In this document: positions 1 to 6,988 of the stretch, piece by piece
Layout of the letters: each line of letters opens with the position of its first letter
How positions within the stretch are numbered: position 1 is the first letter of the stretch
Source of the DNA: Lactobacillus sp. UCMA15818
Lineage (GTDB): Bacteria > Bacillota > Bacilli > Lactobacillales > Lactobacillaceae
NCBI RefSeq assembly: GCF_030400225.1
Contig: NZ_VJYB01000001.1
Coordinates: 62,001 to 126,000, forward strand
DNA: 64,000 nt
Direction: 5' to 3'
Program-made: the position numbers and the translations under genes
The notes under the pieces: model-generated
What the model was told of the DNA's origin: nothing
The model's input: only the letters and a program-made list of their open reading frames with translations
Databases searched by the model: none

Positions 1-42
1 ACGCATTTGAGCGGCTTTAAGTTCTAATGTTTTTGTATCCAA
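1..42 (-). CDS. Probable transketolase N-terminal subunit (5' end only)
   Basis: Only the first 14 codons are in the window. A TTG start at 42 is preceded by a strong AAGGAGG that overlaps the stop codon of the upstream isomerase gene, so the two genes are co-transcribed and translationally close. The peptide begins MDTKTLELKAAQMR, which resembles the start of split transketolase N subunits. That identification is inference from a very short stretch. If right, the enzyme would be the carbon-splitting step for the ketose made by the upstream isomerase. Confidence 0.4.
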   Translation of the reverse strand, partial: MDTKTLELKAAQMR

Positions 43-55
43 GATAATGACCTCC

Positions 56-1489
56 TTAAAGTTCTTTTACAATACTGTTAATATCGCCACGCAAGTAAGC
101 TTGAATGTCTTCTTCAATCGGATCGTAAAAATCTGGTGTGATATCTAAATATTTACATGCTTCATATAAGACTGGGACTACATCTGCTCTTACTGCTGCA
201 ATATGATGGATATACGGCCCGTAAACTAGTTTAGTTTCAAAACGATTTAAATTAGCAAATTTTAACCATAGATAAGTTCCTTGTTCATAGGGACCTGCAC
301 AGGTTTGAGCATTTCCAAGAAGCAGAGAATATTGTCCATTGTCACCATCAAAACGACATAAAGTATAGTTTCCATCTTTAGCCTCGAATGCTACAGAACC
401 AGGGTAATCAAATACAAAATGCGATTTGGGAAGAACGGGTTGATTTTTTGCCGTTGAAAATGGGAAAACACCTAAATGTTGGAGCAACTCTCCATTTTTT
501 TCTTCCGGATGTCTGCAATTAACATCAGCAAAAATAGCTTTCTCATCACCTAATGTAGCAGCTTCAATCAATAATTCAGAAATTACTCCATGAATATCAG
601 TCTCACAAGTAACAGGAGTTCCCTCATCTTGCAAAAGTGATTCAGAAGCATAGGGTAAGATACCTATTTCATCTTGTAATGCTGTCCAACACTGGATTGC
701 TCCTGCATTACAGCCGTATTTATGCATTTTATTGGTTAGTGCGACTTTTAAAGTAGCAACCATTCTCAGATTTTCTGTAGTAATCTCGATTTTAGCTAGG
801 GATTGCAATTTTTCAATGACATTGGTAATTGTAGGATCATTCGTAGCCTGCAAGTGTTTGATTTCTTGGACAAGCTCTGTTAATGGAATCGGTGATAGAG
901 AAATATTGAATTTTTCAAGTAATTCACCTTCATTTATCATTGTTGACCAAAAGTCAAACGGACGTGGTCCAATTTGTAAAATTCTCGTATTTTTAAAAGT
1001 TTTAACAATGTTGCAGACCTTTATGAAATCACAAATTCCTTGTTTAAATTCAGGATCTTCAAGATCGACATTAACTAAATAAGTAAAAGGAACTTGAAAA
1101 CGACGTAGAACTTTACCAATTGCAAATAAACCGCATTGTGTATCACGCAACCGTGAACCATCTGCAGTAGGTGCTTCATCTTTGGGACCCCATAATAGTA
1201 CTGGAATATCAAATTCTTTTGCTAAGCGAGCGCATTCATATTCTGTACCAAAATTTTCATTCGCTAAAAATAGCCCATCAATTTCAGCGTTTTTAAATTT
1301 TTTGGCTATTTTGTGCATTCCATCATCATCATAGAGTAACCCATCAGCGTTAATATCATTAATATCGACATAGTTAATCTCTAATTCGTTGAGCTTATTA
1401 CGAGTTAAGTTCGCAAACTTGATTGCTGCATCTGCAGAGAAAATATTGCGACGAGTTGGGGCGAAGCCAAGAGTTATTTTTTTTGACAT
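56..1489 (-). CDS. L-fucose/L-arabinose isomerase family protein
   Basis: This 477-residue cytoplasmic protein has the overall character of the L-fucose isomerase-like family, which interconverts aldoses and ketoses. No signal peptide or membrane segment is seen. Features visible are an N-terminal sugar-isomerase-like domain (MSKKITLGFAPTRRN) and a C-terminal half rich in the family's conserved His/Glu residues (for example FADVNCRHPEE and GPYIHHIAAVRADV). The ATG is preceded by a GGTGATTT-type site. It is the first gene of a minus-strand operon continuing into a probable transketolase subunit, and it diverges from a LacI-type regulator. The apiosidase-like hydrolase across the regulator suggests that its aldose could be apiose, but the substrate is inference; other pentoses or deoxysugars are possible. 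Confidence 0.8.
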   Translation of the reverse strand: MSKKITLGFAPTRRNIFSADAAIKFANLTRNKLNELEINYVDINDINADGLLYDDDGMHKIAKKFKNAEIDGLFLANENFGTEYECARLAKEFDIPVLLWGPKDEAPTADGSRLRDTQCGLFAIGKVLRRFQVPFTYLVNVDLEDPEFKQGICDFIKVCNIVKTFKNTRILQIGPRPFDFWSTMINEGELLEKFNISLSPIPLTELVQEIKHLQATNDPTITNVIEKLQSLAKIEITTENLRMVATLKVALTNKMHKYGCNAGAIQCWTALQDEIGILPYASESLLQDEGTPVTCETDIHGVISELLIEAATLGDEKAIFADVNCRHPEEKNGELLQHLGVFPFSTAKNQPVLPKSHFVFDYPGSVAFEAKDGNYTLCRFDGDNGQYSLLLGNAQTCAGPYEQGTYLWLKFANLNRFETKLVYGPYIHHIAAVRADVVPVLYEACKYLDITPDFYDPIEEDIQAYLRGDINSIVKEL

Positions 1490-4121: not shown

Positions 4122-6023
4122 ATGAAAGATCAAGAACTTGCTAACCAGATTTTGGATAAGGTCGGTGGCAAAGAAAACATAAATAGTTTAATTCATTGTG
4201 TAACACGGTTAAGATTTAAATTGAAAGATGAAAGTGTTGCTAAAACCGAAATGATTAAAAATCTTCCTGGGGTAATTTCAGTTGTTAAGGGCGGTGGACA
4301 ATATCAAGTAGTTATTGGGGATAAGGTTGACGACATTTATGATTTAATTATTCCTGCTTTAAAAAATAGTGAAAATCAAAATAATTCAGAAAATCAAGAA
4401 GATAATATTTGGAACAAAGCAATTAATTTAATTTCTTCGTTATTTTTACCAGTCCTTGGTCCTTTGGCTGGTGCGGGTGTCTTCAAAGGACTACTCAATT
4501 TATTTACAGTCGTGGGTTGGCTCTCTGAAAAATCTGGTACCTATATGATATTATATGCTGCAGCGGACTCTATGTTTTATTTCTTACCAATCATATTGGC
4601 GGTGACGGCAAGTAAGGTATTCAAAACAAGTGAATACTTAAGTATTATTGTTGGAGGCGCTTTAGTATATCCAACGTTAATTTCTGCGTATAGTGCACAG
4701 CAAACAATTACCTTCCTCGAAATACCCGTAAGATTGATGAATTATAGTTCAACAATGTTACCAATTGTATGTGCAATATATTTATTAGCATATATCGAAA
4801 AAATACTCAAAAAATGGTTACCCAAAGCGCTCCAAATGGTCTTTGTACCGTTACTATGTTTAGCCATTGTTGTACCTTTGACATTCCTAATAGTTGGACC
4901 AATTATGACCTATGTCAGTCAGTTTTTAGCCGATATTATTCTCTGGTTGTATAACGTTGCTCCAATTGCTGGTGGTGCAGTCCTTGCTGGTATTTGGCAA
5001 CTTGCTGTAATGGTGGGATTACACTGGGCATTTATTCCAATTGCTTTGAATAATATTGCAACCCAAGGCCATGATCCTATTTTAGGGATTACTTTTTGTA
5101 CTGTATTTGGTCAAGTTGGTGCTGCACTAGCAATGGGAATTAAAGCCAAGAAAAAAACATTTAAAGAACTTTCCTTTTCGGGCGTGCTCTCTGGATTTTT
5201 GGGAGTAACTGAACCAATTATTTATGGAATTACAGTTCCACACAAAAAATCCTTTGTGATGGCGTCAATTGCCTCTGCATTTGGTGGTGCTATTGCAGGA
5301 TTTTCCGGAACTCAGGCTTTGACAGCTGCTGGAGCAGGAATCTTTGGTTTACCAGGTTTTATTAGTAAAGGCGGTTTGGGACTACCATTTATCGGTGCAA
5401 TTTTATCGGCAATTGTAGCCTTTCTTCTGGCACTTGTGTTAACTTATTTATTTGTACCATCAGTAAAAGACGACAAAAGTGATGAAACAGTAATTATTAA
5501 TGAAAAGGAAACTTTTCTGTCAAATGAATCTCTAGTTTCACCTATTACCGGTGAATTAATAGAACTTGAAACTGTGAATGATGATGTGTTTTCTAAAAAA
5601 ATGATGGGTAACGGTTTTGCAATTGTACCTGATAAAGGTAAGGTACATGCACCGTTTAATGGCACCGTGATAATGGTAGCAGATGCAAAACATTCACTTG
5701 GACTTCGTTCTGATACTGGAGTGGAACTTTTAATTCATTTGGGAATAGATACAGTTGAATTAAATGGCAAGAATTTTACTGTTAAGGTAGAAAAGGGGCA
5801 GAAAATTAAAAAAGGTGATCTGCTTGAAGAATTTGATCTAGATGCGATTAACAAGGCTGGTTACGATCCAACTTCTATGATTATTGTGACTAATAGTGGC
5901 AGTTACAACTTTGATTATTTATCAAACAAAAAAGAAATTATAGATGATAGGCCAATAGTCAAATTAACACCTAAAAATGAAGCAAAGACTAATGATTTGT
6001 CTGTTGGAGTGAAAGACTATTAA
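4122..6023 (+). CDS. PTS beta-glucoside-type EIIBCA permease
   Basis: This 633-residue membrane protein has all three sugar-specific PTS domains in the order IIB (about 1-85), IIC (about 100-455) and IIA (about 485-615). The IIB phosphocysteine is visible in [10 protein letters not shown] (Cys26), and the IIA histidine in LLIHLGIDT (His539). IIC has about ten hydrophobic segments and a GITEPIIYG-like loop ([15 protein letters not shown]). It belongs to the Bgl/Scr/Tre family, which imports and phosphorylates glucosides and related disaccharides. The start lies two bases after the hydrolase stop, with GGAGG inside the end of that gene. Substrate is unknown; partnership with an apiosidase-like enzyme suggests a plant glycoside. 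Confidence 0.93.
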
Positions 6024-6055
6024 TTTATATTGGATTGTAGTATGAGGAGGTTATT

Positions 6056-6988
6056 ATGAAACATTTTAAGCTTAATATTGGGAAAAATGGAGGCTATGCT
6101 GAATTCTATCTTCAGGAGCAAGATTTTGAAATTGATCCTGCGCGTAAATTTCCTACTATAGTAATCTGTCCAGGGGGAGTGTTCATGTGGACATCATCAC
6201 GCGAAGGTGAACCAATTGCTCAACGTTTTCTTGCAGAAGGATTTCATTGTGTTATTGTACATTATGCAACTGAAGGAATTAAAGCATATCAAACTGATAG
6301 AGTTGAAAAGTTACCGCAAAGTCCTGTTTCAAAGTTTCCCAATCCAGTAGTAGAGGTTGCTCAAGTACTTGTATATCTGCGGGAAAATAGTGACCAATTT
6401 GCAGTTGCAAAAGATCAAATTACTGTAATGGGTTTTTCCGCTGGAGGTACAGTGGCAGCATGGCTAGGAGTCTTTTGGAATACCAAATGGCTAGCTGAAA
6501 AGGTTCAGAAAAAAAATGACTTCTTTAAACCAAATTCATTAATGCTTGGCTATCCTGCGCTAGATGTATCCTTGAAATCAGATCGAAAATTTCACACCTC
6601 ACAACCACAAAAAAGTCCAAAAGGTGTTATTATCGCAGCATATGCCGCTACTGGGGAAATTCATCCGGAGCAAGCTGAACTAGACCGTATGAACCCAAGA
6701 AAATATGTTTCAAAAGATATGCCACCGACTTTTATCTGGCATACACAAGAAGATCCACTAGTTCCTGTTTATAATTCTCTTTGGTTTGCAGAAGCGTTAG
6801 AAAAACAAAAAATTCCAGTTGAACTACATGTTTTTTCAAAAGGAAAACATGGCTTAGCATTAGGAGATTATCGTACTGGAATTAAGCAGAATCAGACAAG
6901 CGCTCAAATTTACAAATGGGTGGATCTTTTTTTGGAATGGCTTTACCCTTATAAAACAATTCGCGGTAGTTTCTACAGGGGTCTGTAA
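6056..6988 (+). CDS. Alpha/beta hydrolase, probable sugar-ester esterase
   Basis: The 310-residue cytoplasmic protein has the acetyl-esterase/acetyl-xylan-esterase-like alpha/beta hydrolase fold. The nucleophile elbow is MGFSAGGT (Ser128); the likely acid and base are Asp233 in TQEDPLVP and His265 in GKHGLALG. The oxyanion-hole region is VICPGGVF (37-43). The gene follows the PTS gene by 32 bases with a GAGGAGG site and precedes a strong terminator, so it is the last gene of the operon. It probably removes acyl groups from the imported plant glycoside, which is inference from context. Confidence 0.85.
   Translation: MKHFKLNIGKNGGYAEFYLQEQDFEIDPARKFPTIVICPGGVFMWTSSREGEPIAQRFLAEGFHCVIVHYATEGIKAYQTDRVEKLPQSPVSKFPNPVVEVAQVLVYLRENSDQFAVAKDQITVMGFSAGGTVAAWLGVFWNTKWLAEKVQKKNDFFKPNSLMLGYPALDVSLKSDRKFHTSQPQKSPKGVIIAAYAATGEIHPEQAELDRMNPRKYVSKDMPPTFIWHTQEDPLVPVYNSLWFAEALEKQKIPVELHVFSKGKHGLALGDYRTGIKQNQTSAQIYKWVDLFLEWLYPYKTIRGSFYRGL

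Follow-up and report, generated by a model that had tools for sequence, protein, structure and literature searches.

Described apiose systems and the locus of Lactobacillus sp. UCMA15818

Apiose is found in rhamnogalacturonan II (RG-II) pectin as well as in flavonoid and aroma glycosides. Its catabolism via ApsI, AplK, and AptAB was reportedly described by Carter et al. in 2018 in Nature Chemical Biology, and that work may already list some Gram-positive clusters. In the AptAB reaction, apulose 4-phosphate and glyceraldehyde 3-phosphate yield xylulose 5-phosphate and dihydroxyacetone phosphate. According to extracts of one paper, an aptA/aptB/aplK cluster is found in Escherichia coli ST131 and STc14, E. 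coli with the cluster grows on apiose, the Escherichia cluster is without apsI, and apiose degradation by Bacteroides and Clostridia is attributed to Carter 2018 (PMC13001218). Here, we analyzed a locus at the beginning of a 64,000-nucleotide stretch of Lactobacillus sp. UCMA15818 (hereafter the window; bases 62001-126000 of contig C1 in a 2.58-Mb assembly) and in the DNA that adjoins it. This locus is very probably a utilization regulon for D-apiose glycosides, with apiose as the catabolized sugar.

As in the ApsI/AplK/AptAB system, an isomerase, an FGGY kinase, and a split transketolase are encoded in one cluster, and the N-terminal half of the transketolase (tkN) groups with enterobacterial AptA. 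A homologous isomerase is also found in the apt clusters of Rahnella, Sodalis, and a Klebsiella plasmid record. The enterobacterial apt clusters encode a "sugar-binding" regulator and a ribose-type ATP-binding cassette (ABC) importer, whereas the Lactobacillus locus encodes a LacI-family regulator, a phosphotransferase system (PTS) permease, a hydrolase of the glycoside hydrolase family 140 (GH140) type, an esterase, and a GH1 enzyme; moreover, its isomerase comes from another branch and its kinase is about 33% identical. The pathway steps and the kind of transketolase are already known; what is new here is a predicted cytoplasmic hydrolase coupled to a PTS, a separate isomerase lineage, and a different importer and regulator. 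No account of apiose catabolism in lactobacilli was found among the titles and abstract openings listed in searches of the open-licence literature. In the extracts of two lactobacillus papers that mention apiose (PMC9319371 and PMC12072041), it appears in pectin composition and a general beta-apiosidase scheme, not in catabolism.

The leftward operon has the order isomerase-tkN-tkC-kinase-GH1 on a single strand, tkC being the C-terminal half of the transketolase, and neighboring genes either overlap or are separated by 13-15 bases. Facing it is a rightward arm with lacI, the PF13204 hydrolase, a bgl-type EIIBCA permease, and the esterase. Most of the operon lies outside the window, in a neighboring stretch (L002) in which window base 1 is position 17001. 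A sequence-only reading of the window had placed its genes, predicted a split transketolase, proposed that a sugar kinase be sought beyond base 1, and held that the proteins are without signal peptides. All of its gene positions were borne out, both transketolase halves and an FGGY kinase in the isomerase operon were found in the DNA beyond base 1, and inspection of the N-termini by eye revealed no signal peptide.

Transketolase and kinase

The tkN gene (276 amino acids (aa); L002 16212-17042, minus strand) has its first 14 codons at window 1..42 and extends 789 bases past base 1; the sequence-only reading had just these codons from which to recognize a split transketolase. Its start codon is TTG, after AAGGAGGT, as read on the minus strand at window 1-42. 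It is followed on the same strand by tkC (313 aa; L002 15278-16219). The tkN product is 47% identical to AptA of E. coli SE15. A tree, drawn with a midpoint root, was built from 74 N-terminal parts: 40 isomerase-linked ones, 6 from enterobacterial apt clusters, and 28 others (loci L171-L198, from a search of 151 class genomes in which 30 loci were kept of the 57 matches listed). One branch with supports of 97/93 splits this tree, with the 40 isomerase-linked and 6 enterobacterial AptA rows on one side and the 28 other transketolases on the other. Such a placement indicates that the split transketolase of the locus is, as judged from sequence, of the AptA kind. Searches of the genome with PF02779 and PF00456 found no transketolase besides that of the locus; the other proteins retrieved, encoded on contigs C34 and C23, are identified by their best NCBIfam matches as E1 subunits of pyruvate dehydrogenase. 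A phosphoketolase gene is present elsewhere in the genome.

The third operon enzyme is a GlpK-like FGGY kinase (488 aa; L002 13824-15290, same strand as tkN). It scores 438.9 bits against the glycerol kinase model TIGR01311, below the curated cut-off of 590.35, and the glycerol kinase label was rejected on this ground. All kinases compared in a tree are GlpK-like. That of the locus belongs to a group of 29 kinases from clusters (96/91) that is not specially associated with the enterobacterial kinases; another ten cluster kinases are placed closer to E. coli GlpK, and two further kinases of the same genome cluster with E. coli GlpK. The locus kinase is, on these comparisons, probably not the glycerol kinase, and it is not specially AplK-like either. 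Cluster kinases of Bacillota records carry the name "glycerol kinase" (L148 and L149), which is probably a misnomer; the Listeria kinase also fails TIGR01311, with 483.6 bits.

The isomerase

The first operon gene (window 56..1489, minus strand) encodes a putative D-apiose isomerase of 477 aa. Its structure model (30 sequences, mean predicted local distance difference test (pLDDT) score of 88.4) matched the L-arabinose isomerase 7cxo with a Z score of 34.0 and a root-mean-square deviation (rmsd) of 2.7 over 443 aligned residues (VIA-align). Z scores of up to 29.3 were obtained with L-fucose isomerases, and the next other fold scored 10.1. The protein can thus be predicted with confidence to have the L-arabinose/L-fucose isomerase fold. 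A phmmer search against PDB sequences gave no match at 0.001. The profile of the isomerase matched E. coli AraA with 27.0% probability and FucI with 0.3%; residue mapping is not supported by these values, and no metal ligands are claimed by this route.

Full-length homology was detected with the Rahnella isomerase (24% identity, E 6.5e-35), in which residues of the same types align with E296, D322, H338, and H429. The enterobacterial relative sits between aptB and the kinase gene in Rahnella, Sodalis, and the Klebsiella plasmid record. In a tree, a single group with supports of 100/99 holds the cluster isomerases and is separate from the enterobacterial isomerases. By this comparison with the isomerases of enterobacterial apt clusters, the isomerase belongs to a lineage other than that of the enterobacterial apt clusters.

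The GH140-type hydrolase and its association with the isomerase

The gene at window 2842..4119 (plus strand) encodes a 425-aa protein that matches PF13204 (Apiosidase) at E 7.1e-86 and 289.1 bits, where the cut-off is 26.5, over profile positions 9-316 of 320. A phmmer search retrieved the apiosidase 8t9w (E 2.2e-18), which comes from a mangrove metagenome, and BT1012 of Bacteroides thetaiotaomicron (3kzs/5msy, E 8.9e-18). The structure model (8 sequences, pLDDT 76.5, with values under 50 at residues 216-221, 247-258, 286-308, and 411-413) gave its best matches with these same GH140 apiosidases: 8t9w had a Z score of 33.9 and an rmsd of 3.4 over 395 aligned residues (VIA-align), and 5msy of BT1012 had a Z score of 31.0, followed by a GH164 protein at 23.8 and by lower GH5 scores. 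The fold is common to these proteins over nearly the whole chain. D160 and E244, which we take to be the catalytic residues, are invariant in all eight hydrolases aligned and correspond to the aspartate of the GD and the glutamate of the EPxYE sequence in 8t9w, 3kzs, and 4qfu.

BT1012 acts in RG-II degradation. Unlike BT1012 and 8t9w, to which it is about 20% identical, the Lactobacillus hydrolase has no leader peptide detectable by eye and is encoded in an operon with a PTS; because of these two features, it would act in the cytoplasm, as a predicted beta-apiosidase.

The isomerase and PF13204 occur together far more often than expected. A match to the isomerase was found in 23 of 397 Lactobacillaceae genomes, in 22 of them, counting the genome of the window itself, with an identity of at least 65%, and in one at 26%; PF13204 likewise matched in 23 of the 397. 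The two sets overlap strongly: 16 of the 22 isomerase genomes had a PF13204 match, compared with 7 of the 375 others (Fisher p 1.2e-18, uncorrected for genome kinship), and excluding the window's own genome left 15 of 21 (p 1.5e-17). In 15 of these 16 genomes the PF13204 match lies less than 10 kb from the isomerase (33 to 5269 bases), and the sixteenth carries it on a different contig.

The pairing of hydrolases with carriers was counted in 100 loci, from which seven duplicates under a second id had been excluded. A GH140-type gene was present in 26, and 21 of these 26 also encode a PTS permease (17 matching the bgl-type model and 4 with a PTS EIIC beside the hydrolase). Apiosidase domains also occur in a protein of another architecture, DUF5060-Apiosidase-DUF5605; it was found in 17 loci, seven of which encode a carrier of the major facilitator superfamily (MFS); in L035, the two genes adjoin. 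Sixty loci showed no apiosidase match; a ribose-type ABC permease is encoded in 17 of them, and such loci might take up free apiose.

Other gene combinations were seen at individual loci. Two Lactobacillaceae loci (L038, 14764-19580; L045, 11596-16433) combine the core genes with a ribose-type ABC transporter and a PfkB-type kinase, as assigned by Pfam in L038 and by homology in L045, and the GH140 gene of L045 is only a 148-aa fragment. In two Enterococcus loci in which no apiosidase was detected (L077, 14641-16119; L083, 14639-16105), a Sde182 nucleoside-hydrolase-like protein (PF07632) is encoded directly after the kinase and is followed by an MFS carrier; this protein is a candidate alternative hydrolase for the same sugar. 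In Enterococcus sp. JM4C (L070, 14628-17294), the gene directly after the kinase encodes a GH78 alpha-L-rhamnosidase, perhaps for mixed apiosyl/rhamnosyl glycosides.

Importer, 6-phospho-beta-glucosidase, esterase, and regulator

The permease gene (window 4122..6023, plus strand) encodes a beta-glucoside-type EIIBCA in a single chain, with Pfam EIIB, EIIC, and EIIA domains; it scores 730.3 bits against TIGR01995, over the cut-off of 614.7. The last operon gene (L002 12351-13808, same strand as tkN) encodes a 485-aa GH1 protein whose best match is a 6-phospho-beta-glucosidase model (617.2 bits, slightly under the cut-off of 639). Bgl-type systems for aryl-beta-glucosides likewise combine a TIGR01995 permease with a GH1 6-phospho-beta-glucosidase, but in this locus the two are linked with a GH140-type hydrolase and a pathway of the apiose type. 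The presence of this GH1 enzyme in the operon points to apiosyl-glucosides, and a phosphorylated apiosyl-glucoside is, by a small degree, our favored candidate for the imported form.

The esterase (window 6056..6988, plus strand) is an alpha/beta hydrolase of the BD-FAE/lp_1002 arylesterase type, with a PF20434 match at E 2.4e-23 and 188.2 bits against NF052620, under the cut-off of 300. A homologue is present in three other loci (L047, L048, and L049). We presume that it deacylates the glycoside.

The LacI-family regulator (window 1625..2629, plus strand; Pfam LacI and Peripla_BP_3) is presumed to regulate the locus. It is separated from the isomerase by a divergent promoter region (window 1490..1624). 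An operator search for palindromes with 5-6-base arms found none common to more than 2 of 19 isomerase-lacI gaps; with shuffled gaps, the best sharing was 1, 2, or 3 in 21, 75, and 4 of 100 shuffles, respectively. Words resembling TTTAGT/ACTAAA recur in window 1490-1624 and 2630-2841 and, by eye, also in relatives. They are a possible LacI operator and are not significant as a palindrome.

The esterase gene is followed by genes for glyceraldehyde-3-phosphate dehydrogenase and an AraC-type regulator, which were excluded from the locus. Farther along, a 139-aa open reading frame (window 10551-10970) has a C-terminal part that resembles, by eye, a remnant of a TnpB-type transposon protein.

Distribution of the core genes

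In the 21 other Lactobacillaceae loci, lacI, the isomerase, tkN, tkC, and the kinase were always found together, in an order that varies; the L048 kinase is split over two frames. Among named genomes, at least 538 of 593 pattern-matched stretches encode a relative of the isomerase. Gene counts for these genomes rest on the best 80 relatives, with at least 58% identity: 79 of the loci have tkN, 75 have tkC, and 73 have the kinase, and the misses fell on loci of 3.5-12.7 kb. In all 55 loci of at least 17 kb, the isomerase, tkN, tkC, and the kinase were present; a few of these loci are on the same contigs as the 21 Lactobacillaceae loci, and duplicates under a second id are included in this number. 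By record title, the 80 loci are mostly from Bacillota (lactobacilli, Enterococcus, Vagococcus, Streptococcus, Lactococcus, Lachnospiraceae, and others), with some from Coriobacteriia, and plasmid-collection records add clusters of Listeria and Monoglobus. The core gene set is widespread in Gram-positive bacteria. In a Listeria monocytogenes record (L148, 4004-13086), LacI, the isomerase, both transketolase halves, a "glycerol kinase", a PTS, and a DUF4038 protein are encoded in one cluster.

Some loci contain a phosphoketolase-like gene as well, namely L035/L065 (titled Lactobacillus selangorensis), L041, and that of Lactococcus fujiensis (L080), as identified by Pfam in L035 and by clustering and a hidden Markov model in the others. 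Around seven distant relatives of the isomerase (L050, L062, L063, L064, L158, L159, and L160), no transketolase match was found in the fetched stretches of 6-20 kb; a kinase match was weak in L062 (27 bits) and clear in L159 (130 bits).

Evaluation of the apiose assignment and its alternatives

Several observations weigh against assigning the locus to D-apiose. The identity of the hydrolase to solved apiosidases is low (about 20%), and PF13204 is a broad family. The Fucose_iso_C match of the isomerase is weak (24.9 bits, under the Pfam cut-off of 29.3), and its sole NCBIfam match is the sulfoquinovose isomerase SftI (NF048012). A joint clade of the cluster and enterobacterial isomerases without L062 and L159 was rejected (p-AU 0.005) in a test that is weakened by long branches. 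The kinase resembles the enterobacterial kinases (about 33% identity, and 33% for that of E. coli SE15) no more closely than it does E. coli GlpK (34%). In addition, the genomic association has exceptions: six of the 22 isomerase genomes have no PF13204 match (G066, G089, G172, G322, G331, and G376), seven genomes have PF13204 and no isomerase, and no apiosidase match was found in 31 of the 55 long named loci, so that the core is not always tied to an apiosidase. The G089 locus encodes a protein that clusters with the DUF5060-type apiosidases, and the fetched G066 and G376 loci reach contig ends.

The breadth of PF13204 and of the arabinose/fucose isomerase superfamily, an isomerase lineage unlike the enterobacterial one, and the presence of other hydrolases in some loci (GH78 in L070, Sde182-like proteins in L077 and L083) would all be compatible with a module that catabolizes another unusual aldose, such as a different branched sugar or a furanose, through the same order of enzymes after its release by a PF13204 hydrolase of other specificity. 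Such a module is unlikely, given that the transketolase groups with enterobacterial AptA, that the best fold matches of the hydrolase are GH140 apiosidases, and that the association with Apiosidase-domain genes extends across genera. The NCBIfam match of the isomerase could instead suggest a sulfoquinovose-type pathway with an SftI-like isomerase and a transketolase, and a split-transketolase sulfoquinovose route does exist. However, the SftI label was rejected for a score far under the curated cut-off (95.1 of 700 bits), no GH31 match was found among the locus genes scanned, and the FGGY kinase of the operon would be superfluous for a sugar already sulfonated at C6; we regard this pathway as extremely improbable.

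It is also conceivable that an ordinary pentose-phosphate transketolase and an ordinary pentose/fucose isomerase-kinase pair have been joined by chance or by general pentose regulation; since no other transketolase was found in the genome, a housekeeping role for this one is thinkable. This does not agree with the occurrence of the four core genes together in 55/55 long loci, with the position of the transketolase apart from 28 others of the class, with the restriction of the isomerase to 23/397 Lactobacillaceae genomes, or with the phosphoketolase in the genome, and we consider it highly improbable. Chance clustering in particular was rejected from the 55/55 long loci and the Fisher test on PF13204/isomerase co-occurrence.

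The assignment to D-apiose glycosides, by comparison, draws on gene content, order, and conservation, on folds, on placement in families and trees, on the lack of a second transketolase match, and on the presence of phosphoketolase. An apiose glycoside catabolic locus was what the sequence-only reading had proposed, and the genomic evidence supports it through the two transketolase halves and the kinase, the grouping with AptA in the transketolase tree, and the GH140-like fold of the modeled hydrolase. Its suggestion that the fucose-isomerase-like enzyme is the apiose isomerase gained ground from the co-occurrence with Apiosidase-domain genes and from the relative beside aptA/aptB in three enterobacterial records; apiose is the predicted substrate of this enzyme.

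Proposed route of apiose utilization

In the route that we propose, every substrate, the phosphorylated import, the target of the esterase, and the extent of the LacI regulon are predictions. The bgl-type PTS would import an apiosyl-glucoside of a plant phenolic and phosphorylate its glucose, the esterase would strip an acyl group from the glycoside, and the GH140-type hydrolase would cut off the terminal apiose in the cytoplasm, leaving the GH1 6-phospho-beta-glucosidase to free glucose 6-phosphate and the aglycone. D-apiose would then be converted to D-apulose by the isomerase and to apulose 4-phosphate by the FGGY kinase. The split transketolase would combine the latter with glyceraldehyde 3-phosphate to yield xylulose 5-phosphate and dihydroxyacetone phosphate, and phosphoketolase would cleave xylulose 5-phosphate to acetyl phosphate and glyceraldehyde 3-phosphate. 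LacI would control both arms of the locus. With the AptAB reaction and phosphoketolase, the route would close to acetyl phosphate and glyceraldehyde 3-phosphate per apiose, a yield like that of any pentose.

A broader proposal can be advanced tentatively, at somewhat less than even probability: the locus may represent a second, separately assembled apiose pathway of Gram-positive bacteria, whose isomerase was recruited independently from the arabinose/fucose isomerase superfamily. Its GH140 branch would be specialized on PTS-phosphorylated apiosyl-glucosides in the cytoplasm, with the GH140 enzyme and the 6-phospho-beta-glucosidase dismantling one phosphorylated diglycoside in sequence. Where a lactobacillus has no other transketolase, that of the apiose pathway would link apiose to the phosphoketolase route, and the glyceraldehyde 3-phosphate used as co-substrate would be recycled.

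The analysis offers candidate functions for an isomerase annotated as "L-fucose/L-arabinose isomerase family" and a kinase annotated as "glycerol kinase" (records L148 and L149). If the assignment is correct, a fermenting lactobacillus has an apiose route, which would account for a possible release of aglycones from apiosyl-glucosides in plant fermentations.

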